A stretch of 64,000 nucleotides of DNA from Stutzerimonas nosocomialis (GTDB taxonomy: Bacteria; Pseudomonadota; Gammaproteobacteria; Pseudomonadales; Pseudomonadaceae), in assembly GCF_005876855.1 (NCBI RefSeq), contig NZ_QLAE01000019.1, forward strand, positions 26,279-90,278, read 5' to 3'. Both the position numbers and the translations under genes were made by a program. A model generated the notes under the pieces. That model did no database searches and was not told where the DNA came from. It saw only the letters and a list, made by a program, of their open reading frames with translations. This document shows, piece after piece, positions 1 to 15,105 of the stretch. Position 1 is the first letter of the stretch, and each line of letters opens with the position of its first letter.

Positions 1-1
1 G

Positions 2-277
2 TCAGAGGTTTCCAAGCTCTTCCTGGACTCGTTTGAACAGTTGCTCGATGGTCATTGATCTATCGCGCAGTAAGTAACTGTGGACAAGGATCGACACGGG
101 GTGCACCTCCATGACATATGCAATCTCGTCAAGCTTATCGAGGGTCGGGCTCTTCAGGCCTCGCTCAAGCGTGCTGAGATAGGTTCTACTGCTTACGTCG
201 GAAAAATCCTCCTGAGTGAGCCCTTGGCTCATTCTGAGCTGCTTAAGAGCCTGCCCGAATGCTTGTTTCAGTTCCAT
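2..277 (-). CDS. XRE-family helix-turn-helix regulator, 91 aa
   Basis: This is a short DNA-binding protein that is almost entirely one Cro/C1-type HTH domain: residues about 5-60 contain LRMSQGLTQEDF, SSRTYLSTLERG and SPTLDKLDEIAYVM, the normal helix pattern. The start at 277 (MELKQAF) gives the usual XRE length. The open frame runs further upstream, but that part has no recognisable domain and overlaps the divergent gene at 362. An alternative start at 346 would add 23 residues. It probably represses its own promoter and that of the divergent genes at 362 and 804. Its targets are not known. Confidence 0.75.
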   Translation of the reverse strand: MELKQAFGQALKQLRMSQGLTQEDFSDVSSRTYLSTLERGLKSPTLDKLDEIAYVMEVHPVSILVHSYLLRDRSMTIEQLFKRVQEELGNL

Positions 278-361
278 TTGCCAGCCTCGCAAAAGGAACG
301 ATGAGGCCTGCGTGAGCTCTTTAGAGCTACAATCTATAGTGTTCATATCCGGAGCTGCGGC

Positions 362-787
362 ATGTTCAGAACACATCTGCAGGCAGAGGTGAAAGGAGCC
401 GTTGCGTTCGGCGATGGTCTTCGCGTGTGGCGCTACGTCGAGCAGGCAATCCAGTGCCCATGGCTCTATGTCTGCTGGACGGAGAAGAGTGGCGAGGTAA
501 CCCTCAGCAGCATGCTGATGGTTGCAGACATGTCGTTGTTCGAAGACATGTTGACCCGGCAGACCGAGAGGCTGCGCGTGGAGAATGTCCTGCTTGTAAG
601 CCCAAAGCATCTCAATCGAAGCGCTAGCTGGCTGATGGAGGGGCTTGTGGAGTTATCCGAGGCAATCGGCCCTGCATGCGAGCACCTGGCTTATGTCTAT
701 AGGCTGGAAGGTGGTGGCAGCTACTGGGACGGATACGTGCAGGATGCGCAGCATACTCCGCTTCGAGTGATTTACTCGCGGAGCTGA
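362..787 (+). CDS. Hypothetical protein, 141 aa
   Basis: I do not recognise this protein. It is a soluble-looking 141-residue product (MFRTHLQAEVKG at the start, VIYSRS at the end) with no signal peptide, membrane segment or catalytic motif that I can see. It starts 84 bases from the divergent XRE gene and is followed, 16 bases after its stop, by another unknown gene on the same strand. The two probably form a small operon controlled by the XRE protein. Codon use is mixed rather than strongly GC-rich, in line with accessory DNA. Confidence 0.6.
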   Translation: MFRTHLQAEVKGAVAFGDGLRVWRYVEQAIQCPWLYVCWTEKSGEVTLSSMLMVADMSLFEDMLTRQTERLRVENVLLVSPKHLNRSASWLMEGLVELSEAIGPACEHLAYVYRLEGGGSYWDGYVQDAQHTPLRVIYSRS

Positions 788-803
788 TTGTGCGGAGGTG
801 GCA

Positions 804-1277
804 ATGAATCTAGACCAACAGGATGAAGTGTCTGTCCTTCAGCTAATGAGCGCGATCTGTTCGCGGAGCCCACGAGAGGTTCCTGAAGATGCCCTAGCCG
901 AATTTGCAAAACAGATCTGGTATGGAGAGCTGAATCTAGCTGCTCTGCTTAGAAGGCTCCTTGTGCGATCAGACATGGCCGACGAGCAACGGCGAAGGCT
1001 GCTCTACGTTATAGATCGGTTGATTTGTTACCCCTGCATCCTGCGTTCGAAGGCAACCCTGCTACGGACGATTCTGATGGAATGGGCTGAGCTGAAGCCC
1101 ACACAACCAACCACCAACGCTATCGAACTCGCTGCCCGGCACATGCTGGATAAGAAGGCCCTCGAGTGGGGGCTAGAGGAGGACATTACACCGCAGATGA
1201 AATCTGTGCTGCAGTACCAGACTCGCCATTACGCGGCATCCTTGGGAAAAACCACGGGTTATAGCGAGAAGGGTTGA
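804..1277 (+). CDS. Hypothetical protein, 157 aa
   Basis: This is a 157-residue, largely helical-looking protein of unknown function (MNLDQQDEVSVLQLMSAI at the start). The ATG at 804 is preferred to the in-frame GTG at 798 because a GGAGG at 794-798 sits five bases upstream of it. No catalytic or DNA-binding motif is evident. It follows the gene at 362 by 16 bases and is probably co-transcribed with it. It converges with the small gene at 1282-1497, leaving only four bases between their stops. Confidence 0.6.
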   Translation: MNLDQQDEVSVLQLMSAICSRSPREVPEDALAEFAKQIWYGELNLAALLRRLLVRSDMADEQRRRLLYVIDRLICYPCILRSKATLLRTILMEWAELKPTQPTTNAIELAARHMLDKKALEWGLEEDITPQMKSVLQYQTRHYAASLGKTTGYSEKG

Positions 1278-1281
1278 GGAA

Positions 1282-1497
1282 TTAGTCTTCTGGAACACGA
1301 AAGCGCCAGTACCTATCCGGTTTAACCCAGACAACAATAGTCTCAGTCAACTTGCGGAATGCAGCTAGGACAGCTTTACCGATGACGAGATTGCTATCGC
1401 TACTCTCAGAAACCAGATAATCGCGCTTCGCGTTAGATAAAAGATCTACTACCTCATCCAGATAAATGAGCTTTTCTCGCTCAAGCTGGGCGACCAT
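1282..1497 (-). CDS. Hypothetical small protein, 71 aa
   Basis: This small ORF (MVAQLEREKLIYLDEVVDLL at the start) encodes a charged protein with no recognised domain. It lies 67 bases downstream of the DUF6602-like gene on the same strand, so it could be the last gene of that unit. It ends four bases from the convergent gene at 804-1277. Its length and charge would fit a small partner or antitoxin-like protein, but nothing in the sequence shows this. Confidence 0.4.
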   Translation of the reverse strand: MVAQLEREKLIYLDEVVDLLSNAKRDYLVSESSDSNLVIGKAVLAAFRKLTETIVVWVKPDRYWRFRVPED

Positions 1498-1564
1498 CTA
1501 CTGTGCGGTTGAGCTGAGGGTGGCTGACATTAGAGTGTTAAGTAATTAAGTGTATTGGAGTTTA

Positions 1565-2908
1565 TCACTTCACCCTCCAGGAATCTGTTACACCAGCAAG
1601 CCAGTTTTGAACAGCGATGATACGTTGCTCCACTTCATGGACGTAAGCATCTGCATCGGCATCTGCCACATAGCCATTAGCGACATCAAAATAAGGTCCC
1701 CACTCCAATTCGGCAATGTCTTGGTATCTCTTCTCAAGAGTGTCTGTACCTAAAATCTCATTCATAGATGGGGAAAAGCTGTCTTTTGCCGCATTGTAGC
1801 GCAAATGCGCTAATAGCTCTTGCATAAACCAAGCAACTTGGCTAGGTAGTCCCGTATTGCTCTGTTTGCTGTATACAGTTGGTATGAGTTCATCATATTT
1901 TGTTTTACTGTAACGGGTGTGCACGTAGTGCTTTCCATATACACACACGCACGTGAAATGGCTGAACGGGTGGCTTACGATGCCGTGAGGCCGAGCCTGG
2001 TAGTAGTAGCCATTCATGTAGAAGTCATAAATGTGCTTGCAAATGGTTTTTTCAGTAAGTTTGCTTTCGAATGCAAAAACACCCTTGAACATCGGTGGGT
2101 AGCCATCGTCAAGACGGCCGGCATGATGCAGAATATCCAAACTATTCTTTAGTTGCCTTGCATCCAGTTGAGTCTTTACTTCGATTACGGCTCGCACGGA
2201 GTTTGCTGGAACGACGACTAAGTCTCCCTCTCTGAACAGTGGCGCGTAATCAATTCGGTCATAAATTAGTACATCAAATTGCCTAGCGCAGTCGTAAATG
2301 AAGCCTGAAGCAACGTGATATCTCTCAGGTAGATGCTTGCGAAGCATACTGGTCAGCAATTTTTCGCGATACCCTCCGACAGTGGCACCATGTGAGATAA
2401 TTAAGCGAACTCGCTGACTAAGAGCTTCGAGTTCACCAGCCATTGATGCAGCGAAAATTCTTCTCTTCTCAATTTCCTTCTGATGTTTACCATGCTCTAA
2501 GTAAACCGCTTGTTTAGCGAGGTTTTTACCTGTGGTGGCTTTAAGATGGCCTTCGGAGATTAAAGCCTTGAGCATGAATGCTATTTGCTCATTAGAGGCA
2601 TTAATTCTCTTATCGTTGCTAACCTTCTCGAGAATCTGGGTCAAAGAGATTTTTTGAGTGTGGCTTATCAGAGAGCTTGTGACGTCCAGTACGAATCGAT
2701 AAAGCTCAAGATCTGGAGGGCATTCTAGATGGGCGCGTATGGAAAAGGGGTGAAGTTCAATCTTTTCCGTACTCGTCAGTTTTCGTTTGAAAGACGATCG
2801 GACGTCCTTGATTAGTAAAGAGCCACTTTCATCTTGCCCCGCGAAACGGTAGAGTTTGAGATCTTCCCATGCATCAGTACTAACGAAGCAAAGGTCATCC
2901 AAATTCAT
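1565..2908 (-). CDS. DUF6602-like putative PD-(D/E)XK nuclease, 447 aa
   Basis: This 447-residue protein has an N-terminal regulatory-looking half and a central DUF6602-like domain. That domain shows GGYREKLLTSMLRKHLPE, then ASGFIYD, QFDVLIYD, and finally RAVIEVKTQL. The late D...EVK arrangement is the PD-(D/E)XK nuclease core pattern. DUF6602 proteins are common near defence genes, and cleavage of nucleic acid is inferred from that fold rather than shown. The gene starts 84 bases downstream of the ABC-3C ATPase gene on the same strand, so it could be read from the same transcript. Composition is AT-rich like the ABC-3C genes. Confidence 0.65.
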   Translation of the reverse strand: MNLDDLCFVSTDAWEDLKLYRFAGQDESGSLLIKDVRSSFKRKLTSTEKIELHPFSIRAHLECPPDLELYRFVLDVTSSLISHTQKISLTQILEKVSNDKRINASNEQIAFMLKALISEGHLKATTGKNLAKQAVYLEHGKHQKEIEKRRIFAASMAGELEALSQRVRLIISHGATVGGYREKLLTSMLRKHLPERYHVASGFIYDCARQFDVLIYDRIDYAPLFREGDLVVVPANSVRAVIEVKTQLDARQLKNSLDILHHAGRLDDGYPPMFKGVFAFESKLTEKTICKHIYDFYMNGYYYQARPHGIVSHPFSHFTCVCVYGKHYVHTRYSKTKYDELIPTVYSKQSNTGLPSQVAWFMQELLAHLRYNAAKDSFSPSMNEILGTDTLEKRYQDIAELEWGPYFDVANGYVADADADAYVHEVEQRIIAVQNWLAGVTDSWRVK

Positions 2909-2992
2909 ATCTGTTTCCTTAAAGATAGATATTGCCTGTTAGAGTAGGATTTTGGCCGTGATATGTGTTGGCTAGACTGTCGCCTACTCCAA

Positions 2993-5320
2993 CTAACTGG
3001 CTTCTCTGCTCAGGGCTTGCATGTTGAATGTTAGAGGCAATAGGCCGGCTCTTGTGAATCGATACCTCATATACGAGGAGATTTCATCCTCGTGAGATGA
3101 GACAATTAATTGCCTATCTTTAAGTTCGCAGCGCAGAAGATCCGTCAAAGATGCAATGTTTACCTCGTCCAGGGATTGAGACGGATCGTCGATCATAATT
3201 ATGGGGACGCCTGAGTAGACTCTATTCAATGAGAGGAAGAAGGCGAGACTCAATGCCGATATCTGGCCAGAGCTCATGGATAACATTGCATCGTGATCTG
3301 AATATTCAGCAGTCGCAAACCTGAGTTGATTGCCGTCTTTGCTTTCAATGAATAGCCCAAGTCCGCGCTGATAGTTCTGAATTAGCCTTCCGCTGTATAC
3401 GTGGAATACCAGTTCTATTTCAGATATTGTGTGGTCGGAGTAAGCTTTTTCTACTCGCTCCAAGGTTCCGCGCAAGGATGCAACTCGCTCCTTGATTCTG
3501 GTTGTCGCTTTATTTTCCTTTCGGATAGTATCCAGTCTTTGAGTGATGCCTATCAGTGTTGCACTCTTTGCTTCGTTTGCTTTAAGTGAGATGTACTTTA
3601 GTTTTGTCTCTAGCGCGTCGCGCTCTAATACATAGAAATCTGCCTCGTCCTTGAAAGCGGTGGATATTACAGAGCTCCACTGATCTGGAATGTCTGCAAT
3701 TTCTTCTTGCTTTTGAGCGCGAAACAAAGCAATCAAATCCGCTAACCGCTTCTCCTCTTCCTCAGGATCTATCGTGTACGTGTCTGGGTAGAGGATCCCT
3801 CTTTTGGTAAGCTGGTCGCCGAGATCTTGTATTCGTTGAATTATCTCTTTATGCCGGCGAAGCACCTGGTGAAGATCTGGATCATAGTTTGATCTTTCGA
3901 ACTTTAGATCGCTAGTTACACGCGCAGTCAAAACTGATATAGCCTTTGCTATCGATTCGATTACCTGTACAAGTTTTTTACCGTCCTCGCTTAGGCTCTC
4001 AGATAGCTTTTGGGCTCTTTTCTCTATTGCAGAGAGTAACTCTTCGTGCGTCTTCCAATCCTGCGAACACAGTGGACAGGTATTGTCATTAGGATAAATT
4101 TTGAAATGCTTTTCAAGGAGTTCGCTTTTTAGCCTGCTAATTTCGGCAATAGCTGCGGCGTTCGCTGCTGAGGAAGAGTTTAGTAGGTCACGACTTTTAA
4201 TCTGCTCTTCAAGGTCGGGAAACTCGTCAGGTTGCCAGCCAGGAGTTGTACGAATTTCATCAAACACAATGCTCGCTGCACCCTTTTCCAGAGTCGACAG
4301 AGACAATGACAAAGAGTCGACATTGGATTTTGTTACGGATAGCGCGGTGAGCTCTCCTGTGGTCTTGCCAACTTGGATTAGAGCTCGTAATAGATTGTTG
4401 TTTTTGGAGATGTAGTTCTCGATTTTTTCATTGGATATTCTAATCTTGATAGCTTGCTTTAAAGGCAGTAAATCGATTATGTTGCGTATCTCTGTGACAT
4501 AATTGTCGTGAATTTCTTTTGAGTATCCAGAAAATAATACTTCCTTGTCCCAGCTCGGTTGAATGTCGGCAGTGCTAAGCTTCTCGTATGCGGCACCTTC
4601 CAGTCCGTTCTCTAGCATTGCGCGGAGTGCTTGGCCTTCTCTATCAAGTCGAGACTCTTCTTCCTGGCGCTCTTTGCTGAGCCTCTGAGTTAATTTCTTT
4701 TCCAGGCGCTTGCACTTGCTAATTTATGCAACTATAGCGCCTGATTGGATTAGGCTTTCAAGCGCCTTCTTTCGGTTATTTAGGCTGGTCGAAAAAAGAT
4801 ACTCATTCTGGCCTTGCTCTAGGTAGTTCAGAAAGGAGTAATTTTCTTGGAAATTTTGTCCAAAAAGCTCGGCTATTAAATCATCGCTTTTCAGGTTCTC
4901 ATCAGTAAAGTCGGTTGATTCAAAGCTGTCTAACTTATAGAGCTTGAATAGTGAGAAATCGTTCGCCTTATTTTTGTCTTTTGGCCAGAGGCTTTCGCTT
5001 GGCGCATGTCTAGCGAGAACTATTTTTTCATCGTCTGACTTGAACTCAATTTTTATGTGGAGATCGTTGCCTTGAGATCGCACATTCCAGAATAAGTTGT
5101 CCTCATACTTCTTCTTCGTTCCAATCATTACTTTATCGAAAAGGCGCTCAATTCTCGCTATTTTTCCTGTCAGGAGCAGTTCGATAGCATCAAAAATACT
5201 GGTCTTCCCAAAGCCGTTTGGGCCGTCTAAAGTTAAGAGTGAAGCGGACTCTAAATTCAGAGATATATTTTTGAATGCCTTAAAGCTGGCAATCTCAATT
5301 CGGGATATTTTCCAGTTCAT
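2993..5320 (-). pseudogene. ABC-3C Rad50-like ATPase, interrupted by an in-frame TAA
   Basis: This is the ATPase of a three-component ABC (ABC-3C) conflict system, an SMC/Rad50-type protein that would be about 774 aa. The first 198 residues carry Walker A (GPNGFGKT, residues 33-40) and a Q-loop (YLEQGQNEY). A TAA at 4726-4724 then stops translation. The same frame stays open through 34 more codons and continues into 541 residues with a zinc-hook CPLC, coiled-coil-like stretches, signature LSMSSGQ, Walker B IIMIDDP and an H-loop SSHED. One base change would restore the gene. It overlaps the middle-component gene by 26 bases. Reinitiation at the ATG at 4618 could give a two-part head, but loss of function is the simpler reading. 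Confidence 0.8.
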
Positions 5321-5969
5321 TTTTAATCAATTCCTTGATTAGATCGTCTGTGGCAATGTCATCGCTTTCGGGGATATTTTGGATTTTTTTATAAAGCTCT
5401 GTTAGCTCTGACTCTGCTACCGCAGCCTCTGCCTGAAGCTTTAATGGAACCAGTTCGCGCTTTTCATGGTTCAGTATGAGGAATGGGATCTTTATGAATA
5501 TTTTTGCGGCAATGCTGTAGGTAGACGAGGAGAGAGGAGAGTCTTTGTAAGAGTCAAATTGGTTCTTGTCTGATATGGTGCGTAGAAGGTCTGCAAACTC
5601 GAATCCAGCTAAGCAATCCTCCTCCTCTTTTGTGTAGTAAAGTACGTACTTCTTGTAGTGGTACGCGTCTTCTTCAATTGCGAAGATTTTATCTTCTAGC
5701 TCTTTGAAGTCCGCGAGTTTTTCTAATCTTAGCAAACAAATTAAGTCGCAATTTTTCTTGAAGGCGGGGTGCTCGACGAACTCCCTAGGGGCGCTAAAAG
5801 AGGCCGCTTCATTTAGTGATTCTGGAGGCCGCAGCACCGTCATTTCATGCACAATCGCGAAGCGGGCTGCTTCCCCATGCAGGCGAAGAAAGTAAGAGGA
5901 TTGCTCCGACTCATGAGCCAAAGAAAATCCTTGCTCATTTAATGCGTTGCTGATTATTCCTCTAAGCAT
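5295..5969 (-). CDS. ABC-3C system middle component, 224 aa
   Basis: This 224-residue protein lies between the effector gene and the ATPase gene of the ABC-3C system, which is where the middle component (MC) sits in these loci. It begins MLRGIISNALNEQGFSLAHE and includes a region of alternating hydrophobic strands (NCDLICLLRLEKLADF). It overlaps the upstream gene by 8 bases and the ATPase gene by 26, so translation is likely coupled. MC proteins are thought to link the ATPase to the effector. The assignment leans on position as well as on general resemblance. Confidence 0.7.
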   Translation of the reverse strand: MLRGIISNALNEQGFSLAHESEQSSYFLRLHGEAARFAIVHEMTVLRPPESLNEAASFSAPREFVEHPAFKKNCDLICLLRLEKLADFKELEDKIFAIEEDAYHYKKYVLYYTKEEEDCLAGFEFADLLRTISDKNQFDSYKDSPLSSSTYSIAAKIFIKIPFLILNHEKRELVPLKLQAEAAVAESELTELYKKIQNIPESDDIATDDLIKELIKNELENIPN

Positions 5970-7185
5970 TTAACTTTCCTTCTGCATCCAGTTTTGTTAT
6001 GACGTTTATGCTCAGTTCGCGAGTGATTTTGTTGTCTTGACTGTCCGCTTCGTATTTTGGGTCTGAACCATCATTCTCTGTAATCTTTGTTTCGACTCGG
6101 AATGAGTTGAGAGATGAGAATGCAATCAAGTTGCGGTATTCAAAAAGGAGTGGTTGGAGTCTTCTGTTATTCTTCATCTCCTCCCTGATCCTGTCTATGC
6201 ATGCGCGGCATTCGCGATCGCTTAACAATGTTAGTGCGGTAGGTAGGTAGAAATTTGAGTCAGAGTCTATGTAATGGGGCAGGCGCTGGAGAATAGGGTC
6301 GATACAGAAGTCCTGAATTAACTCAGAGTATCTTCCGATGTCTTCGTGTTGTATCTTTGAAAAACTTTCGGAAGGCTTCATGACTTGGCAGAGACGTAGG
6401 AGATCTTCTGGGTATAATTTGTGCAGGTGTTTGAATAGATCTTGAGCTCTTAGATACTGCTTGTCATTTATTTCCGGTAGCAGGTCGTCAAGTGTTTTTT
6501 CGAGATGGTTGAAGAGGTTCTTTCTTAGCTCTGTTGCAAAGTATTCGACATCATTTTGCAGCCCTTCGGATAGTATGGCGGCTAGAAGTTTGGAGGCGTG
6601 TATACGATTCTCAAAAGCTGCCTTATTCTCAGAAATTCCATCGATTTGATTAATTTTATGGATTTCTATGGCCTTGCTACTGATGCTTTCCGAAATTAAG
6701 CAATAATTTTGGTCGGTGAGGCGTTCGCTTGGTGGAAAGCCCTTGGTGTCATTAAATATGTTTTTTATAAGATCTTTGGTGATCCCTTCTATTTGACCGA
6801 GCTCGCAGTATTTTTGGTCGTTATACTTATAAAAACTTACGGTCTCGCCGTTCCCCGGGCTGTAGTCCGATGTGTCATCTATTTTTACTGATACGTGGAA
6901 ATACCGTTTGGTCCCGGCCTTTCTGTGATTATCAATCTCTGCGGATTTTTTTAGCGCTTTAGCGTAGCTGCCTCTGGTTGAGCCAACCTTTGCTTTGACT
7001 TGATGGGCGCTAAGAAGCTTTCCATCTTTATATATTGCAAAGTCATCGGTGCTGTCTAGCTGCAGCTCGAATTCTCTTTCGCCCTCAAGGATTAATTTTA
7101 AACAGTGATAAAGGGCGACCTTTCCTTGATATACAAACCCACTCCATGAGGAGATTGCGCTATCTGGCTCAGTTAATTCGCTCAA
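5962..7185 (-). CDS. ABC-3C effector: Cap4-like nuclease domain plus ABC-3C C-terminal domain, 407 aa
   Basis: This is the first gene of the ABC-3C operon. Residues about 12-75 show the Cap4/DUF4297-type nuclease pattern, with GFVYQGKVALYHCLKL, then ELQLDSTDDFAIY and LLSAHQVKAK. The conserved Gln, Asp and Q-x-K are those of this PD-(D/E)XK-like family. The C-terminal half (about 240-370) is helical and resembles the ABC-3C CTD that docks to the other components. The inferred role is a DNA-degrading effector released or activated when the ATPase senses invading DNA. The gene is AT-rich. The partner ATPase carries a nonsense codon, so this toxin-like gene may now be uncoupled or silent. Confidence 0.75.
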   Translation of the reverse strand: MSELTEPDSAISSWSGFVYQGKVALYHCLKLILEGEREFELQLDSTDDFAIYKDGKLLSAHQVKAKVGSTRGSYAKALKKSAEIDNHRKAGTKRYFHVSVKIDDTSDYSPGNGETVSFYKYNDQKYCELGQIEGITKDLIKNIFNDTKGFPPSERLTDQNYCLISESISSKAIEIHKINQIDGISENKAAFENRIHASKLLAAILSEGLQNDVEYFATELRKNLFNHLEKTLDDLLPEINDKQYLRAQDLFKHLHKLYPEDLLRLCQVMKPSESFSKIQHEDIGRYSELIQDFCIDPILQRLPHYIDSDSNFYLPTALTLLSDRECRACIDRIREEMKNNRRLQPLLFEYRNLIAFSSLNSFRVETKITENDGSDPKYEADSQDNKITRELSINVITKLDAEGKLNA

Positions 7186-7474
7186 TGCGGAGTCCCTTCA
7201 GTTTTCGCTAATGTTGCGATGATATCATTATGCGATTGGATGCCAACTGCAGCTTTGGTTGGAGGGGGGGCTTGGCATGTGGCGCTGCAAGGAGGTGAGC
7301 GCACAGGCACATTCGCAGCTGAGGTAAGCATGCATTCCCTGCAGTATTTGGCACGACATGGTGGAGTACTGCCGACGACTAATCCCAACGAGGCCAATGT
7401 GCCCCGAGGCCGGATAGGGCGTAACGAAAGGCTTCTGCGTGCATTAACTGCCCCAAGGCCGTGGAATGTAGTGG
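7186..7474. other. Gene-free stretch upstream of the ABC-3C operon
   Basis: I see no supportable gene here. It probably holds the promoter of the ABC-3C operon near 7190-7230, where the sequence is AT-rich. The part at 7250-7474 is more GC-rich and may be debris linked to the IS3 remnant that begins at 7475. Open frames on both strands here have no recognisable protein features. Confidence 0.5.
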
Positions 7475-7921
<447 letters not shown>

Positions 7922-7997
7922 CTAGGCCGCGCATTGTAGCGCTAGCGTTTGCTTAGAAGCGGTGGTTCTGCGGATAGGCTTTCCTGGCCCAACCGCA

Positions 7998-8330
7998 TTA
8001 TCTGAAGGTGAGTTCCTCCAGTGCCAAGACCAAACTTTCAATCGCGTGTGCGCTGGTTTGCGACGACGCGATTAATCGTTCGACTCGGGACAGCAGATGT
8101 TGAGGTGGCCCCATGCTGCACGGATAGATCGCTATTTGCAGATATGTGCAAATTCTCTCAACATTCTTGCTAATGCGCACAATCTTTCCCTGCTCAATCC
8201 TGGACAGTTGAGAGTGATGTACGCCGCACGCAGATCCCAGCTGTACAAGGGTCAAGCTACGGGCTGTGCGCGCTTCCCGAATCTGTTTTGCGATCTGGGT
8301 GGCAGATAATGTATGGAATTTTTCGGTCAT
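7998..8330 (-). CDS. XRE-family HTH regulator of the DUF4031-MazG-UDG operon, 110 aa
   Basis: This is a Cro/C1-type repressor-like protein. The HTH lies at about residues 13-60, with AKQIREARTARSLTLVQLG, HHSQLSRIEQGK and VERICTYLQ. A helical tail follows. MTEKFH at 8330 is taken as the start; an in-frame ATG at 8339 is possible. The gene is divergent from the DUF4031-MazG-UDG operon, and an 11-bp perfect inverted repeat at 8328-8356 overlaps its start codon. The protein therefore probably represses itself and that operon. What signal would relieve the repression is not visible. Confidence 0.8.
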   Translation of the reverse strand: MTEKFHTLSATQIAKQIREARTARSLTLVQLGSACGVHHSQLSRIEQGKIVRISKNVERICTYLQIAIYPCSMGPPQHLLSRVERLIASSQTSAHAIESLVLALEELTFR

Positions 8331-8356
8331 AATGTGCATAATATTTGCACATTATG
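8328..8356. promoter_or_regulatory. Palindromic operator between divergent XRE and DUF4031 genes
   Basis: CATAATGTGCA at 8328-8338 and TGCACATTATG at 8346-8356 form a perfect 11-bp inverted repeat with a 7-base AT-rich spacer. It covers the start codon of the XRE gene and lies 17 bases before the DUF4031 start codon. This is a typical position and size for a dimeric XRE repressor site controlling both directions. Confidence 0.75.
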
Positions 8357-8372
8357 CACAGGGAAGCCAGTC

Positions 8373-8741
8373 ATGGCCGTCTACGTAGATTCTGAAGAGA
8401 TCCGCTGGAAAGGGCGCGTGTGGTGCCATCTGGTTGCTGATTCTCTTGACGAGCTTCACAGCTTTGCGGCTCGATTGGGTCTTCAGCGTAAGTGGTTCCA
8501 GAGCAAGAGCTTTTACCCCCACTACGATGTGACGCTGTCAGTCAAAGCTCAAGCTATGCGGCTAGGAGCCATTCACGCAGATCGCAGGAAGATCATCGGG
8601 TGCTGCAAGCAGATGCGAGCACAGTTGCTGGCGCAAAGGGTGCAGCAGCAATCGCCGCTCGATTCAGGAGGAATGCATGGCACCTATTGCCAGACAGCAG
8701 GAGCGACCCTTATCGCTGCCGGAGTACGCGCTCAAGGCTAG
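8373..8741 (+). CDS. DUF4031 domain protein, 122 aa
   Basis: The N-terminal 75 residues match DUF4031: MAVYVDSEE, then GRVWCHLVADSLDELHSFA, LGLQRKWFQ, PHYDVTLS and AMRLGA. The conserved H, D/E and HYD residues suggest an enzyme or metal-binding fold, but its reaction is unknown. The start at 8373 gives the family's usual MAVYVD beginning; the longer frame from 8313 runs through the operator and is rejected. It is the first gene of a three-gene unit and overlaps the MazG-like gene by 65 bases, so the two are translated together. Confidence 0.8.
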   Translation: MAVYVDSEEIRWKGRVWCHLVADSLDELHSFAARLGLQRKWFQSKSFYPHYDVTLSVKAQAMRLGAIHADRRKIIGCCKQMRAQLLAQRVQQQSPLDSGGMHGTYCQTAGATLIAAGVRAQG

Positions 8742-9903
8742 CAACAGCTCTCGCTTCAAAGAAGATCCCAAAGCGCTGCAGGTTTTACGTTTTGGCTTCT
8801 TCGGTGAAGTGGGAGGATTGCTGTCTTCGGTGAAGAAGGCAGAGCGTGACCGGCTTGAGGAAACTCAAAGCGAAGTCGCAGCTGAGGAGCTTGGAGATGC
8901 TTTGTGGTACTTGGTAAGGGCTGCCTCGATCCTGCGGTTCACGCCAGATGAGCTGGGGGAAAGTTGCCTGACGGTGCTGAGGCAACGTTTCAAGGAGGGC
9001 GAGTGCCCTCCTATTGCGACGGTGAATTTCAGGCACATTGATGCACTGATCAATACGCGCCGCCAGGAGGACGGCTCCTCTGCAAGGGCCATCCAGCTTG
9101 GCGCGCTAGCTCATGCGGCCGGCATCTTCTGCAATATGCCTGATGGGCAATTGAGGTCCGGTCCGACTCCCACGCTTAGGGATCACCTTGGCGGTCTGCT
9201 GGCGGATTTGGCCCTCAGCTGTGCGAGTTTCGATCTTCACCTTGAAGATGTGGCCCGATACAACCTGGAAAAGATCAAAAGCCGGTGGCCAGGCGAAGAT
9301 CGGCAGTTCACCCCGTACTTCGATCCGGAGCCCGACTTCCCTCGCTACGAGCGGCTGCCTAGGGAGCTGAAGATGGACTTCATCGAGCTGCCGGGGCGCA
9401 ATGGGCCTTATGTCGTGCAGCAGCTGAACGGTGTCTTCATCGGCGATCGTTTGACGGATAATAGCAATCAGCCCGACGATTACCGTTTCCACGACGTCTT
9501 TCATCTTGCCTATATGGCGTATCTTGGATGGTCGCCAGTTTTGCGTGGTTTGCTGAAGCTCAAGCGTAAGTCGAATCCCGTCATCGATGAGAATGAGGAT
9601 GGGGCTCGGGCCATGATCATCGAGGAAGGGATCGCAACTTGGATCTTCAACCACGCGAAGCGCAGAAGATTTTACAAGGGCATCGAAGAAGGGGCCCTTG
9701 AATATGGCCTGCTCAAGCAGATCCATTCCATGGTTGAGGGATATGAGGTTTACCAGTGCCCGTTATGGCAGTGGGAGCTGGCCATCCTGAAAGGGTTCGA
9801 GGTATTTCGAGAGCTTCGTACCAAGCGATCCGGGACCGTAGTGGTCGATATGGTCAACCACCAGCTGACCTTCCAACCTCTCATCGAAAAGAATCTTGTG
9901 TGA
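8677..9903 (+). CDS. MazG-like nucleotide pyrophosphohydrolase-type protein, two-part, 408 aa
   Basis: Residues about 28-100 look like an all-alpha NTP pyrophosphohydrolase (MazG-like) domain, with FGFFGEVGGLLSSVKK and EELGDALWYLVRAASIL. The EExxD half of the metal site is kept, but the usual ExxE reads GEVGG, so the site may be altered. A second, weaker copy may lie at about 140-210 (LGGLLADLALSC). The C-terminal half is different: YRFHDVFHLAYMAYLGW followed by ARAMIIEEGIATWIFNHA, resembling the C-terminal domain found behind MazG in some accessory proteins. A GGAGG at 8667-8671 supports this start. It overlaps DUF4031 and meets the UDG-like gene in a TGATG junction. Confidence 0.7.
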   Translation: MAPIARQQERPLSLPEYALKASNSSRFKEDPKALQVLRFGFFGEVGGLLSSVKKAERDRLEETQSEVAAEELGDALWYLVRAASILRFTPDELGESCLTVLRQRFKEGECPPIATVNFRHIDALINTRRQEDGSSARAIQLGALAHAAGIFCNMPDGQLRSGPTPTLRDHLGGLLADLALSCASFDLHLEDVARYNLEKIKSRWPGEDRQFTPYFDPEPDFPRYERLPRELKMDFIELPGRNGPYVVQQLNGVFIGDRLTDNSNQPDDYRFHDVFHLAYMAYLGWSPVLRGLLKLKRKSNPVIDENEDGARAMIIEEGIATWIFNHAKRRRFYKGIEEGALEYGLLKQIHSMVEGYEVYQCPLWQWELAILKGFEVFRELRTKRSGTVVVDMVNHQLTFQPLIEKNLV

Positions 9904-10577
9904 TGACTCCCACCTCTTTCGTGAAAGCCTTAGCCAGCTTGAGTCTGGACGATGTTTTCAACCCGTATGCGGATACATGCCCCCTGCATGACCGGACAGA
10001 TGCGGCTTCGTACCGGCGGGCAAACCTGCGGACATATCTCAGCGCCGCGGCAGACATCGGGGTCGATACCATTTGGATGGGACGAGATCTCGGCTATCGG
10101 GGTGGGCGCAGGACTGGCTTGGCACTGACGGACGAGTTCCATTTGGCGGAGATGGCTAAGGTGTACCCAGGTTGTACGTCCCGGCAGGCCACAAAAGGCC
10201 CTGTTATTTCCGAGCGAACAGCCGCGGAGATCTGGAGGGTCTTGAAGGTGATTGAAAAGCCACCTCTGCTTTGGAATGTCTTCCCATTTCATCCGCACGA
10301 GGCGGATAACCCTTTGACCAACCGACGCTTCAAAGCGAAGGAGCTCGCTCTGGTGAGCGAACTGAACAATGCATTGATCAAATGGCTGAAGGTTCGGAGG
10401 ATCATCGCAATCGGTCAAGATGCCGCCAGTTATGCGACAGCCTTTGGGGTGGAGGTTCTGACTGTCCGACATCCGAGCTACGGTGGGGTGCGAGACTTCC
10501 GGGATGGCATGAGACAGATCTATGGAATTCCGGAAGGCCTCTTGGGGGCTAGGTCGCCGCAAGGGGTGCTTTTATAA
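9903..10577 (+). CDS. Uracil-DNA glycosylase superfamily protein, 224 aa
   Basis: This is a UDG-fold protein: TIWMGRDLGYRGGRRTGLAL fits motif 1 with its glycine-rich loop, PLLWNVFPFHPHE the central strand, RIIAIGQDAASYA the next strand, and VRHPSYGG the HPS base-flipping motif 2. It would remove a damaged or modified base from DNA, but which base cannot be read from the sequence. The ATG at 9903 overlaps the MazG-like stop codon (TGATG). The longer frame from 9756 lies inside the upstream gene and is rejected. Its 3' end overlaps the convergent TS-like gene by 29 bases. Defence glycosylases such as Brig1, which excises modified phage bases, are a precedent. Confidence 0.75.
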   Translation: MTPTSFVKALASLSLDDVFNPYADTCPLHDRTDAASYRRANLRTYLSAAADIGVDTIWMGRDLGYRGGRRTGLALTDEFHLAEMAKVYPGCTSRQATKGPVISERTAAEIWRVLKVIEKPPLLWNVFPFHPHEADNPLTNRRFKAKELALVSELNNALIKWLKVRRIIAIGQDAASYATAFGVEVLTVRHPSYGGVRDFRDGMRQIYGIPEGLLGARSPQGVLL

Positions 10578-11388
10578 GCGTTTCATCGATTGGAAACGTT
10601 TCAAGCAGCCTGCTCGCTGCGCGGATGCCGCCGAAGCCGTCATCCAGCTTGGCGTATGTCGATATGCAGGTCAGCGTCCCAGCTTCGTAGCCCGACTCCG
10701 TTGCGACGTACTGCTGCAGCTGGGCCAACCCGATCAAATTGCCCAAGGCCCTTTGAGCGTAGTGGTGGGATCTGTAGATGGCCGTTAGGTCGATTTTCCC
10801 GTGCATCAGCTTGAAGGTCACATGGCTCAGGCAGGCTGAACCGTAATACTTATGCCGGTCAGAGCTCGGGTCGTAGGTAGGCAGCTCAAACCCGACGCCA
10901 TTGAGATCTTCTGCAAGGTCCACAGCTGGATCGCAAACACCCAGCTCATAAGCTGCCACGTAACGATTTAAATTTTTTGTGCGGATAGCGGCCAGTTTTT
11001 CAATAATTTTTTCAAGTGGGTTGAACGTTACGCCACTTTCATCCTTTCGCTCAATCATGCGTAGCGCATAGGTGCCCCAGCTGCGAGGAGCCATACCGCG
11101 CGCCATAATCGTTTTATAATGCGCGTACCACCCCGGGCGTCCGTAGCGCTTGTAAATGGTCTGCGGGAAGATCGTCCCCGCTGCAGTCATCACCGTGCGC
11201 TCTGCATTGCGCTGCCGCAGGGCCTGACTTACTGAGATGACTACCTGGCGGTCTTCGCTCGTTGCCGCCTGAGGCGAGGTGACTTCCAGGATGACATTGG
11301 TGGCATCGTGGTTTTTCTGGCTTTCCAGGTAACGGATACCGGCCAACCACGCTTGTACTACACGAGACCTCTGGAACACTTCCGTCAT
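10549..11388 (-). CDS. Thymidylate-synthase-like protein, 279 aa
   Basis: The C-terminal half aligns by eye with thymidylate synthase/dCMP hydroxymethylase. SACLSHVTFKL stands for the PCHVLFQF region, AIYRSHHYAQRALGNLIGLA for the Y-QRS-D---G-PFNIA region, and WGTYALRM (105-111) for the earlier GxxYG part. The phosphate-binding RS and the nucleotide-binding Asn are kept. The catalytic Cys position reads Ser188, with a Cys two residues before it, so normal TS chemistry is doubtful. It ends a five-gene operon and overlaps the peptidase gene by 4 bases. A role in making or sensing a pyrimidine nucleotide is inferred. Confidence 0.65.
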   Translation of the reverse strand: MTEVFQRSRVVQAWLAGIRYLESQKNHDATNVILEVTSPQAATSEDRQVVISVSQALRQRNAERTVMTAAGTIFPQTIYKRYGRPGWYAHYKTIMARGMAPRSWGTYALRMIERKDESGVTFNPLEKIIEKLAAIRTKNLNRYVAAYELGVCDPAVDLAEDLNGVGFELPTYDPSSDRHKYYGSACLSHVTFKLMHGKIDLTAIYRSHHYAQRALGNLIGLAQLQQYVATESGYEAGTLTCISTYAKLDDGFGGIRAASRLLETFPIDETLIKAPLAAT

Positions 11389-12002
11389 CTATCAGCTCCG
11401 TAAATACATGATGCATGGTTCGTCAGGTAAGAATGCGGTACCCATGCGTGACCGTTAACCCCCCAAGACAATCCCCAGCTATTGCAGATCAGGTAATGCT
11501 CGGTGCCCGCTTGGTCGTCACCGTAGCCCACGATCACTACTGCATGCCGACCTGGGAAAACATTCATTTCGAATGACACAACACCATCCACGGGGGACAT
11601 GAAAGACCTGGTCAATGAAACCAGAACGCCTACAGGCCTGCCGAGATTCAGCCATTGCTTGATTTTGCCCAGGTCTGCTGCGGCCAGTGTCATATGAGGG
11701 CCATAAAGTGAGAGGCCTGTGGGCAACTCTGGTAGCGGATGGCTTGGCTCATCCTGTTGGTACGGGACGTCATGGTCTTCCGGCAGCCCTGCCGCTGTCG
11801 CCGCAATGGCGATTCTTACGTCTAGGCCTTCGTTGGGCTTCCAGGTGGGGCTTTGGTGTACGGTGGCTAGGTATGCGTATTCGGGACTGAGCAGGTAGTT
11901 CGAAAGGTTGCCTTTGATCCCAGCGAGCGAGAAAGCTACGCACGAACCTCTGCTTCCTTGGTCCCTAGCGCTCATCGATATCATTACGCGCGGTTGAATC
12001 AC
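11385..12002 (-). CDS. Papain-like (C1-family) cysteine peptidase, 205 aa
   Basis: The catalytic layout of a C1 peptidase is complete. RDQGSRGSCVAFSLAG has the oxyanion Gln15 and nucleophile Cys21, GRHAVVIVGYGDD the catalytic His, and ICNSWGLSWGVNGHAWVP the catalytic Asn with the NSWG motif. No signal peptide is present, so it acts in the cytoplasm. The GTG at 12002 is chosen because it forms a GTGA overlap with the ImmA stop and has GAGGA upstream; ATG at 11984 is the alternative. It sits between an ImmA/IrrE peptidase and a TS-like gene, so it may process one of these or a host target. That role is inferred. Confidence 0.8.
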   Translation of the reverse strand: MIQPRVMISMSARDQGSRGSCVAFSLAGIKGNLSNYLLSPEYAYLATVHQSPTWKPNEGLDVRIAIAATAAGLPEDHDVPYQQDEPSHPLPELPTGLSLYGPHMTLAAADLGKIKQWLNLGRPVGVLVSLTRSFMSPVDGVVSFEMNVFPGRHAVVIVGYGDDQAGTEHYLICNSWGLSWGVNGHAWVPHSYLTNHASCIYGADR

Positions 12003-13015
12003 AGTCGGCCACTTCCTCGAAGCAAGGCTTCCTTGGCAGCGGAAGAAAGACCGTTCGCTAAACTTTCGAATTGTGCCTGTGTGTCGAAACTGTCGAGCGG
12101 CTGCGCCGAGCGATCCCACTGTTTGCGCTCACTAAGCTGGAGCTTCGAGGGGCCGGTTTGTAGAGCGGGAGCAGGGCAAATCAGATACTCCTGGTAGTGC
12201 TCGCCACCAGCGATCAGCGCACCTTCATCTGTGGCGCCTTGCTGCGGCAGCAACACCGGCTTAATCATGAAGCCTTCTGAGGATGCCTCGCTGGTATCCC
12301 AGACGTAACCGGCACCGGAGTGGTTTTTTAACCGCACCAGCATTTGATCATCGATGCGCGGTTCGAGAATGAGGTCTCGATCGGCTTCATCCAGCAACCA
12401 CACATCTCGTTGGGAATTCTCCAACGGCTTGGACAGTAGAGCCTTCTTGATTGCCGCCGGTTGGACGCGCAGCACCTCGTCAACGACTGAGCGATCAAGT
12501 AATCGAAGCCTCTGAAGTGACCAGGCGGTAGCTGAATAGCTGATACCGAGCCTCAGGGAAAGCTGATAAAGGTTGAACGGGTGCGCGAGATCTGCCACTC
12601 CCCAGCCTTTTCGCTTCATAATCTTTGCGACAGCCCAGCGGGGCGCCACGAGGCTGTAGGCGAACCAATCGGCTTCCAATTCTTTCTTTGCGGCGGTATT
12701 GCTGTAGTCGAGCCGCTCGTCTGTCGTCGTGCCGTGATCCAGGTAGAAGTGTCCGAGCTCATGAGCACAGGTCATTTGGATAACACCGGCCGGACGCTCG
12801 GAATTTACGAGAATTCCTGGATGGCTCTCGCTGATGAAGGCCCCCCAGAGCTTTTCCAGCGGCCGGAGCATGACGACCACCCCGGCGGATTGGGCAATCC
12901 GGAATGGATCAATACGCGTGTAGCCGTCTTCCTCGATGCGGCGCTTCGAACCTGACTCTCTAACAACCTCTGCGGCACGCGTGGTAACAGCTCTGATTTG
13001 ACTTGCAGAGAGCAT
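11999..13015 (-). CDS. ImmA/IrrE-family metallopeptidase, 338 aa
   Basis: This is a zinc metallopeptidase of the ImmA/IrrE (COG2856) type. TCAHELGHFYLDH at residues 83-94 gives the HExxH motif, and ELEADWFAYSL supplies the third ligand Glu. Family members cleave or inactivate XRE repressors (ImmA with ImmR; IrrE with DdrO). The gene lies directly behind an XRE gene with a 9-base gap, which is the classic pairing. The C-terminal 140 residues have no known domain and may recognise the inducer or the downstream peptidase. It overlaps that peptidase by 4 bases. It is probably the derepression switch of this operon. Confidence 0.85.
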   Translation of the reverse strand: MLSASQIRAVTTRAAEVVRESGSKRRIEEDGYTRIDPFRIAQSAGVVVMLRPLEKLWGAFISESHPGILVNSERPAGVIQMTCAHELGHFYLDHGTTTDERLDYSNTAAKKELEADWFAYSLVAPRWAVAKIMKRKGWGVADLAHPFNLYQLSLRLGISYSATAWSLQRLRLLDRSVVDEVLRVQPAAIKKALLSKPLENSQRDVWLLDEADRDLILEPRIDDQMLVRLKNHSGAGYVWDTSEASSEGFMIKPVLLPQQGATDEGALIAGGEHYQEYLICPAPALQTGPSKLQLSERKQWDRSAQPLDSFDTQAQFESLANGLSSAAKEALLRGSGRL

Positions 13016-13024
13016 CCCTATCTC

Positions 13025-13375
13025 CTAATTGGCTTTTTTAGCCCTCAAGAAATCAGCAAATCGAGCGACTTCATCTACGTCCTTCTGAGTCAGTCCTTTG
13101 ACTGCCCTGGCTAGGAAAGCAAATTGCTCGGGGCCGGAGTAGCTGGGCTCGCAGCCTGTGAGCAGGTACTCGACTGACCGCCGATAGATGCTTGAAAGCC
13201 GTTTGAGCTCTGTTACCTCAATTTTGCGAGCACCGGACTCGATTCCAGTTATTGCTGTACGGGGAAGCCCTACGAGCTGGGCAATTTCGGCTTGCGAAAG
13301 CCCCAAATACTCCCGAGCAGACCTCAATCTCTCTGCGATCTGGAGCCGTTCTTCATCATTCTCAGTTTCACTCAT
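13025..13375 (-). CDS. XRE-family repressor paired with ImmA/IrrE, 116 aa
   Basis: The HTH runs from about residue 9 to 65, with RLRSAREYLGLSQAEIAQLV, LPRTAITGIESGARK and LSSIYRRSVEYLL. A C-terminal part (QKDVDEVARFADFLRAKKAN) is likely used for dimerisation. The start at 13375 (MSETENDE) overlaps the upstream gene's stop by 8 bases, so translation is coupled. By analogy with ImmR/ImmA it should repress the operon and be cut by the adjacent metallopeptidase. The unrelated extension of the frame to 13486 is rejected. Confidence 0.85.
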   Translation of the reverse strand: MSETENDEERLQIAERLRSAREYLGLSQAEIAQLVGLPRTAITGIESGARKIEVTELKRLSSIYRRSVEYLLTGCEPSYSGPEQFAFLARAVKGLTQKDVDEVARFADFLRAKKAN

Positions 13376-13643
13376 CTTCCTTCGCCAGGTACGTGAGTAC
13401 CCCCTCAGTGACTTGTTGAATGAATTGATCGCGTGACTCGTAACCGCCGTTACGGATGATGACTTCCACCGGAATTTTCTGGCCAACGAGCACGTCGATA
13501 TCGATCATCGCTTCACAAGCGGTCAACGAGTCCATAGGTGCGCCCAGGTCATCAATAGATGTGGGGTCGCTGGCTATGGCAATTTCTCGCTCATCCCAGA
13601 ACACACCCAGCAAATCTTCGATTTGGTTTTGAAGTGACGTCAT
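13368..13643 (-). CDS. Small protein resembling an acyl-carrier fold, 91 aa
   Basis: This is a 91-residue acidic protein that begins MTSLQNQIEDLLGVF and is the first gene of the five-gene operon. The middle reads SIDDLGAPMDSLTACEAMID. The DSL with flanking hydrophobics is the pattern around the phosphopantetheine serine of acyl carrier proteins, and the spacing to the later helices (KIPVEVIIRNGGY, DQFIQQVTEGVLTYL) also fits an ACP-like four-helix fold. This is resemblance by eye only, and no acyltransferase lies nearby. It may instead be an unrelated small regulator. Confidence 0.5.
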   Translation of the reverse strand: MTSLQNQIEDLLGVFWDEREIAIASDPTSIDDLGAPMDSLTACEAMIDIDVLVGQKIPVEVIIRNGGYESRDQFIQQVTEGVLTYLAKEDE

Positions 13644-13980: not shown

Positions 13981-15105
13981 TCACATTCTTAGCTCAAAAA
14001 GCTCGTCTACGAACTGGTTAACCTCGGCTGCCGCGTAAGAGTTAGGTGCTACATCCAAGACAGAGTGGAAGTAGCTAAATCTGGTCCATAGGCTACGATT
14101 GCGATTGTAATCGTGAGTTACTGTCTCATGCGCCGATGTGAAATTGGACTTTAGTAGTGGAATGCCCAGCTTGGTGATATTAAACAGTATGCTTTCACGC
14201 TTTTCCTTCTCGTCGGCTTTGGATTGATCCAGCTCCATTGCAATTTCTTCGCTGATTTCAACGTAGTCGCCAACGTATTCTTCTAGCTCTATGCTTCTGC
14301 CTCCAACATCGCATCTTGTAATAAGGCCGAATAGCATTGGGTTTTTCTTCTTCTTGAGTAGGCGCTTGAAGTGAGCAATAAAGTTTTCCGCGCTATAAAT
14401 GGACTGCTGGCAATTGCTGTCTAGAACTAACACCACGAGATCAACGAGGTCTCGTACTTTTTCTAGGCTACGGTTTATATCGAAAAGAACGTAGTCATAG
14501 TTTTTTTTCAGTTGCTCGTAGGTTTTCTTCGCATTTCTCTTTCGCTCAAGCCTTTCGGATAGTTCGCTATGGATCAGTGGCCTGAGGTCTATGGTTGATA
14601 TTGGTTTGTGCGCTCTATTGCGGTTTAATTCTTTCTCTAGTTTTCTGATTTCAGACTTGGAGAAGAGAATATCTAGCTCATCATAAAAGCTAATTTGGCT
14701 TACCAATGAACCAGGTTCTGGGCTATCCCCTTTCTCAATTTTGCACGTATAAACAATATCGTTGGTCACAATAGCCACCTTAAAACCGCGCTGTACCAAG
14801 CAGGCGGCTACATCCACAGTGATCGGGGACTTTCCTACGCCACCTTTGTAGGCTGTTATGGATAGGGTTTGCCCAGACTCAGATTCAAAAATGTAATCTT
14901 TCAGTTCAGGCGGGATAGCTATGCCTGAACGGTGAAAGAAGCACCACAGAGACCTGCGCGTTGGATTCCTTGATGACGAGTCAAAGGCCGATTCATACGA
15001 TCTCCATGTGCGGTCTTTCACTCCCGCCCAGTAGGCGGCCTGAGGCACGCTGATGAAGTTCGACTCGCGTGCATGTTTCAGGCATTTACGAAGATGATTT
15101 TCCAT
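13981..15105 (-). CDS. ParA/MinD-type ATPase with N-terminal HTH-like segment, 374 aa
   Basis: Residues about 1-55 look like a DNA-binding or adaptor segment (SVPQAAYWAGVKDRTWRSYE). A deviant Walker A ATPase follows, with SITAYKGGVGKSPITVDVAA, then YDYVLFDINRS in the Walker B position and LVVLVLDSN. In normal ParA proteins the loop is KGGVGKTT; here the last two residues are S-P, so nucleotide handling may differ. The family positions plasmids, ICEs or chromosomal islands. GAGGAAA sits 7 bases before the start. The gene is AT-rich and is the last island gene before the core. No parB was found beside it. Confidence 0.75.
   Translation of the reverse strand: MENHLRKCLKHARESNFISVPQAAYWAGVKDRTWRSYESAFDSSSRNPTRRSLWCFFHRSGIAIPPELKDYIFESESGQTLSITAYKGGVGKSPITVDVAACLVQRGFKVAIVTNDIVYTCKIEKGDSPEPGSLVSQISFYDELDILFSKSEIRKLEKELNRNRAHKPISTIDLRPLIHSELSERLERKRNAKKTYEQLKKNYDYVLFDINRSLEKVRDLVDLVVLVLDSNCQQSIYSAENFIAHFKRLLKKKKNPMLFGLITRCDVGGRSIELEEYVGDYVEISEEIAMELDQSKADEKEKRESILFNITKLGIPLLKSNFTSAHETVTHDYNRNRSLWTRFSYFHSVLDVAPNSYAAAEVNQFVDELFELRM

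Follow-up and report, generated by a model that had tools for sequence, protein, structure and literature searches.

A conserved gene module of Stutzerimonas nosocomialis combining a predicted thymidylate synthase-fold enzyme with exchangeable DNA-base partners, a candidate nucleotide-centred conflict system

A stretch of 64,000 nucleotides from Stutzerimonas nosocomialis (contig NZ_QLAE01000019.1, positions 26,279 to 90,278; the window from here on) contains at 7998-13643 nine intact open frames in two convergent units. Comparison with relatives points to one conserved unit at this place, in which an enzyme with a predicted thymidylate synthase (TS) fold is accompanied by an acyl carrier protein (ACP)-like protein, an XRE repressor, an ImmA/IrrE metallopeptidase, a papain-fold (C1) protein, a MazG protein and either a uracil-DNA glycosylase (UDG)-like protein or, in other members, an HMUDK_hel protein; the catalytic residues are conserved, and UDG and HMUDK_hel are exchanged one for the other. 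Tentatively, the unit may be read as a horizontally mobile conflict module, most likely acting against phages or plasmids, that would work through pyrimidine deoxynucleotide chemistry and be switched on by proteolysis. A function in defence is likely.

Organization of the module

In the sequence-only reading of this DNA, two convergent units were proposed whose terminal genes overlap by 29 bases, with genes overlapping or almost touching inside each unit and with the forward unit lying behind a divergent XRE gene and an operator. This layout was recovered in full: neighbouring genes inside each unit overlap by 1 to 65 nt, and the sole spacing is a gap of 9 nt between ImmA and XRE2. The features are the following:

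7998-8339, minus strand: XRE1 helix-turn-helix regulator, 113 aa (HTH_31, E 5e-10); divergent from DUF4031; accessory
8328-8360, no strand: putative operator, two overlapping inverted repeats between XRE1 and DUF4031, spanning the XRE1 start codon
8373-8741, plus strand: DUF4031 protein, 122 aa (PF13223, E 6e-27; phrog_4887, E 2e-19); accessory
8677-9903, plus strand: MazG + MazG_C protein, 408 aa (PF03819, E 2e-5; PF18722, E 7e-78)
9903-10577, plus strand: UDG-like protein (UDG superfamily-like), 224 aa (motifs; annotation of relatives in the records)
10549-10577, no strand: convergent overlap of the UDG-like and TS-like 3' ends, exactly 29 bp (sequence)
10549-11388, minus strand: TS-like enzyme, 279 aa (thymidylate synthase fold in the predicted model; partial TIGR03283 match)
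11385-12002, minus strand: C1 papain-fold protein, 205 aa (PF00112, E 2.5e-14); GTG start
11999-13015, minus strand: ImmA/IrrE metallopeptidase, 338 aa (PF06114, E 4e-12; PADLOC capP, E 3.5e-13)
13025-13375, minus strand: XRE2 repressor, 116 aa (HTH_3, E 3e-12; PADLOC capH, E 1.7e-12)
13368-13643, minus strand: ACP-like carrier protein, 91 aa (Ser39 in a DSL motif; sub-threshold NF005079)

The probable operator is formed by a perfect 11-bp inverted repeat, CATAATGTGCA-7 nt-TGCACATTATG, at 8328-8356, and by a 10-bp inverted repeat that overlaps it. The sequence AGGAGG is placed immediately 5' of the MazG ATG, and the GTG start of C1 overlaps the ImmA stop by 4 nt.

Conservation and mobility

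A genome scan with the TS-like protein as query returned 224 relatives, the best 80 of which were used as loci; gene counts refer to the 61 of these with at least 4 kb of flank on either side, the 19 short-flank loci being left out. Since the 61 contain many close relatives, many of them from Sphingomonadales, they do not amount to 61 independent events. Genes for the ACP-like, XRE, ImmA, C1 and TS-like proteins were each found in all 61 loci, MazG in 59, UDG in 53 and HMUDK_hel in eight, and MazG was combined with UDG or HMUDK_hel in 59. Moreover, the pairwise identities of six proteins are correlated with r of 0.89-0.96 (15 pairs, 49 loci), none of 500 permutations per pair being as high, and the 3' ends of TS-like and UDG overlap in 55 of the 70 loci measured (median, 16 nt). 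A dCTP deaminase-like gene lies near three of the 61 loci. DUF4031 occurs in 11 of them and is accompanied by an adjacent XRE gene in the nearest relatives; DUF4031 and the divergent XRE1 are accessory and outside the core.

The surroundings of the module vary from locus to locus. The 142 proteins immediately flanking 79 loci are distributed among 116 families, 101 of them singletons and the largest with five members, so that the flanks are for the most part unrelated, which the sequence-only reading had named as a sign of a module. In addition, tblastn against 72,556 plasmid records was positive for the TS-like protein in 20 records, for MazG in 34 and for the UDG-like protein in 45. Neighbourhoods read among these plasmids repeat the order ACP, XRE, ImmA, C1, TS-like, followed by the convergent UDG and MazG; one of them is without an annotated UDG, which tblastn finds there. 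In a cyanobacterial plasmid and a Rhizobium plasmid, a small gene in the ACP position, XRE, ImmA, TS, HMUDK_hel and MazG are co-directional in a single run, without C1 and UDG. Taken together, the joint occurrence, the correlated distances and these single-direction runs support, beyond chance, the idea that the two halves constitute one module, as first suggested from the window.

The genome loci are spread over five bacterial phyla, and plasmid members come from actinomycetes, a cyanobacterium and a haloarchaeon. Among 97 genomes (56 from the genus of the window, its own included), the TS-like query was present in the window's own genome only. Neither the TS-like nor the UDG-like protein had a match at E 0.01 among 50,697 phage records. 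The sole relative of the TS-like protein on a viral contig (L097, putatively viral) is accompanied by XRE, ImmA, MazG and HMUDK_hel, and the C1 and ACP profiles have no match there.

The TS-like enzyme

The TS-like protein gives a partial match to TIGR03283 (E 6e-12, under the cut-off of the model), and its predicted structure (pLDDT 87) adopts the thymidylate synthase fold. The best Z scores, tied within 1, correspond to 9iqc (17.0), 9iqu (16.8) and MilA (16.3), with ThyA at about 14.7; MilA CMP hydroxymethylase and the TS-fold dCMP hydroxylases (5b6e, 9iqc, 9iqu) share 15-16% identity with the TS-like protein and have other partners. The residue register was taken from a profile alignment to ThyA (E 3e-4, against 0.09 and 0.46 for controls). 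Among 65 sequences aligned from a pick of 71, Cys186 (65/65), Arg206 (64/65) and Asn217 (65/65) are kept, which correspond to the catalytic nucleophile C146 and the dUMP-binding R166 and N177 of Escherichia coli ThyA, where D169 is the folate-binding Asp. The site of this last residue is occupied by Asp in a single sequence of the 65, and by Tyr in 32, Phe in 15, His in nine and Trp in four, while position 213 is Lys or Arg in all of them. Because the folate-binding Asp is present in just one sequence, the protein is considered a TS-fold enzyme and not a folate-dependent thymidylate synthase. Its residues and predicted fold are consistent with pyrimidine C5 chemistry by means of a donor or cofactor other than folate; flavin may be such a cofactor, an idea that comes from the title of 9iqc. 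In one member, a second annotated thymidylate synthase gene (L010:11049-12101) is located about 4 kb away from the TS-like gene.

MazG and the exchangeable DNA-base partners

No fewer than 90% of 69 MazG sequences retain each of the residues E44, E71, D74, H272, D273, H276, E316 and E317. The UDG-like protein had no match in Pfam, and its profile matches to solved UDGs are weak (E 0.86-0.97); in local hhalign comparisons with three UDG sets, the E values were 0.0044, 0.03 and 0.15, against 0.13 and 0.22 for the controls. The motifs RDLGYRGGRRTG (D62) and RHPSYGG (H190) are invariant in the 30 sequences aligned out of 56; compared by eye with members of PF03167, the polar catalytic residue of motif 1 and the HPS of motif 2 are present. 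Relatives of the protein are annotated as 'uracil-DNA glycosylase' in the records, and it is by these motifs and annotations that the identity is proposed. UDG-like relatives with 61%, 33% and 31% identity exist in Hydrogenophaga, Variovorax and Pseudomonas putida plasmids (L149, L150 and L151, respectively), where neither MazG nor a TS-like gene is annotated in the vicinity.

UDG and HMUDK_hel are mutually exclusive, exactly one of the two being present in each of the 61 loci, and their exchange amounts to four changes on the TS-like tree (drawn without L029, L034, L036, L060 and L082, in which neither partner was seen and which are all truncated, on one side or both, by the end of the contig). 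Another example of this exchange is found in a second gene set, where a ThsB-like TIR gene and Nmad2 stand beside MazG-UDG (L152:1501-6574, L014:4897-10004 and L153:2130-6429, with an additional SIR2 in L014): in L156:3835-8477 the order is TIR-Nmad2-HMUDK_hel-radical SAM. This strict alternation, repeated in the TIR and Nmad2 gene set, points to one common substrate. HMUDK_hel, for which 15 of 18 picked sequences were aligned, has many relatives in phages.

In the Haloarcula member (L003:1618-3252), a dTMP kinase gene adjoins HMUDK_hel, and a phosphopantetheinyl transferase gene is found upstream of the ACP position. Metallophosphoesterase genes adjoin MazG in rhizobial plasmids (L010:8846-11020, L005:9816-11999 and L013:4389-5804), and this enzyme is a possible further partner of the module.

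The ACP-like and C1 proteins

Of all the proteins in the module, the ACP-like one is assigned with the least certainty, by motif and position. It scores below cut-off against NF005079 (E 0.006, 16.9 of 83 bits) and has no match in Pfam; the protein in the ACP position of the cyanobacterial member reaches PF00550 at E 0.026, also below cut-off, and that of L154 gives no PF00550 match. Because no curated ACP score is reached, the protein is called ACP-like and is not filed in the acyl carrier protein family. Ser39, the phosphopantetheine Ser of a DSx motif, is conserved, with 90% or more of 79 sequences having it. The gene in this position is annotated as 'acyl carrier protein' in four plasmid members (L006, L011, L012 and L015) and as 'hypothetical protein' in L002-L005, L007-L010, L016 and L154; since the ACP-like profile gave no match to the four proteins annotated as acyl carriers, their tie to the ACP-like protein is by position. 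A phosphopantetheinyl transferase gene (five loci) or a holo-ACP synthase gene (four loci) is situated near nine of the 61 loci. As for the C1 protein, the Gln, Cys, His and Asn of the papain site are kept as conserved columns in 88 sequences.

The XRE2/ImmA switch

ImmA carries the motif H85ExxH89 and a third Glu ligand, E112, conserved in 85 sequences, together with an extra C-terminal region. The best PADLOC matches are capH for XRE2 and capP for ImmA, and the layout is of the CapH-CapP type, that is, a helix-turn-helix repressor beside an HExxH peptidase with a third Glu ligand. PprI is described as activated by single-stranded DNA, and CapP likewise cleaves CapH with single-stranded DNA, according to PMC10904395.

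Comparison with known systems

The sequence-only reading knew of no named system with this gene set. DUF4031, MazG, UDG, TS-like, C1 and ACP-like match no PADLOC model at E 0.1, and no description of such a system was found in a comparison that had Burroughs et al. (2015) outside it. The PADLOC scan of the flanks covered 92 of the 142 flank proteins (equal-length flanks and flanks above 900 aa were dropped), and 50 of 121 controls. Among the closest known systems are those of the DefensePredictor study, in which E. coli units containing domains of thymidylate synthase and of 5-hydroxymethyluracil kinase were validated, a direct precedent for both domains in defence, with dNMP kinase and NMAD additionally named in a legend (PMC13092281). 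Systems with MazG, MazG-C, UDG and NMAD are predicted there, citing Burroughs et al. (2015); MazG and MazG-C appear without experimental validation and UDG in the legend of predicted systems (PMC13092281). The folds shared with the module are TS, the 5-hydroxymethyldeoxyuridine (5-hmdU) kinase type (in the HMUDK_hel variant), MazG, MazG-C and UDG; in contrast with the module, acyl carrier protein and ImmA have no occurrence in the main text of that article (PMC13092281). The window itself has no HMUDK_hel gene.

Another precedent is Brig1, described in PMC11078745 as an antiviral glycosylase of the UDG superfamily that excises the alpha-glucosyl-hydroxymethylcytosine (hmC) of T4, its gene being near a Thoeris ThsA-like gene. 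By this description, both have a protein resembling the UDG superfamily that occurs in defence surroundings, close to genes of the Thoeris type, although Brig1 gives immunity as a single protein and the UDG-like protein of the module is tied to MazG and the TS-like/ACP operon (PMC11078745). In view of these two precedents, as far as the articles describe them, the module is placed among nucleotide- and base-centred conflict systems (PMC11078745; PMC13092281). An XRE-type repressor adjoining an ImmA/IrrE HExxH peptidase is shared with CBASS CapH-CapP and with Deinococcus DdrO-PprI; unlike CBASS, nucleotide cyclase and effector are absent from the nine proteins in domain and PADLOC scans, and unlike Thoeris, TIR and SIR2 domains are absent from the window module in the Pfam scan. 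Finally, phage thymine hypermodification (5-hmdU kinase, aGPT-PPlase / PUGT) has a TS-fold enzyme in its pathway, and HMUDK_hel belongs to the same Pfam family, probably with the same fold; the module differs in that plasmids and chromosomes carry it and in that ACP-like, ImmA/XRE and MazG accompany it.

Genomic setting

On the left, the module adjoins a Lamassu-type system with LmuA at 5962-7185 (Cap4-like nuclease match), LmuC at 5295-5969 and an LmuB broken in two frames, 2993-4618 and 4724-5320. A DUF6602 / NucC-like gene is also on this side (1565-2908), and the remnant of an integrase-core (rve) transposase, 7733-7918, separates the module from the Lamassu genes. To the right are a ParA-like ATPase (13981-15105, 374 aa) and then an RmlD-like gene. 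The GC content of the module is 0.548, versus 0.676 for 15503-64000 and 0.469 for 1-7997. Several plasmid members likewise have defence-type neighbours, with caspase-like and CHAT genes nearby and SIR2 near L154, and the lone MazG-UDG pair has CBASS phospholipase, TIR and SIR2 in its vicinity.

Proposed function and alternatives

In the tentatively favoured scheme, XRE2 would repress the ACP-XRE2-ImmA-C1-TS operon until an infection signal, for example single-stranded DNA, activates ImmA in a CapP- or PprI-like manner, so that XRE2 would be cut and the operon freed. The TS-like enzyme might then use Cys186 to attack dUMP or dCMP at C5 of the pyrimidine and add a non-folate group, the likeliest carrier of which would be the ACP-like protein, a guess made because of its constant link with the TS-like protein; the papain-fold protein, where present, could be a transferase or processor. 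The altered nucleotide would be incorporated into actively replicating DNA, with MazG-MazG_C controlling the pool of the corresponding triphosphate. Once in DNA, the altered base would be acted on by the UDG-like protein or, in loci of the other variant, by HMUDK_hel. Excision would leave abasic sites and ruin the DNA of a fast-replicating invader. In its strictest form, a carrier-dependent nucleotide weapon in which a folate-free TS-fold enzyme puts an ACP-bound group on pyrimidine C5, an interchangeable UDG- or HhH (helix-hairpin-helix)-type partner turns it into a lethal lesion and ImmA releases the whole, this proposal seems unlikely.

The module might, conversely, attack phages that carry an odd base instead of making one, an alternative that is somewhat doubtful. 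MazG would then destroy modified dNTPs, UDG or HMUDK_hel would excise or block the modified pyrimidine in phage DNA in the manner of Brig1, and the TS-like protein would bind or reverse a phage-made 5-substituted dUMP and feed the ImmA/XRE switch. The excision of alpha-glucosyl-hmC by Brig1 near a ThsA-like gene, as reported (PMC11078745), the recurrence of MazG-UDG with ThsB-TIR and Nmad2 in the absence of TS, and the many phage relatives of HMUDK_hel are in accordance with such counter-hypermodification immunity. However, the ACP-like protein, as constant as the TS-like protein in the 61 loci, is left without a role, and the TS-like protein has retained its Cys-Arg-Asn set, as a functional synthase does.

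Two further possibilities appear improbable. One is self-marking, in which TS-like, ACP and HMUDK_hel or UDG would introduce a hypermodified thymine into the DNA of the carrier plasmid or host, or proof-read it there, reproducing the phage pathway in a cell. In the HMUDK_hel variants, a fold of phage hypermodification does accompany a TS-fold enzyme, and a dTMP kinase gene adjoins HMUDK_hel in the Haloarcula member; yet the commonest variant (53 of 61) has a glycosylase-like protein, which would strip bases, and constant marking is ill-suited to an inducible protease switch. The other, with an equally slim chance, is a pathway for a small nucleoside-type toxin in which MazG and UDG provide self-protection, the role being bacteriocin-like or in plasmid maintenance and not in phage defence. 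The TS-like fold is close to that of MilA, which is part of mildiomycin synthesis, of two convergent but separate units one could make a toxin and the other be its antidote, and some copies of the module are on plasmids, but MazG-UDG is also found without the synthesis half. That two unrelated operons are chance neighbours, each half having its own regulator in the window, is hardly credible, being contradicted by the 59 of 61 loci with MazG and UDG or HMUDK_hel, by the distance correlation of 0.89-0.96 and by the single-direction runs.

Returning to the conflict module with its own nucleotide chemistry, the implied coupling of a carrier-like protein to a TS-fold enzyme is, to our knowledge, a chemistry not known from immunity, and, if true, it would be categorically new. 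The alternation of two DNA-base enzymes in the same module, in turn, makes the question of their common base a testable one.

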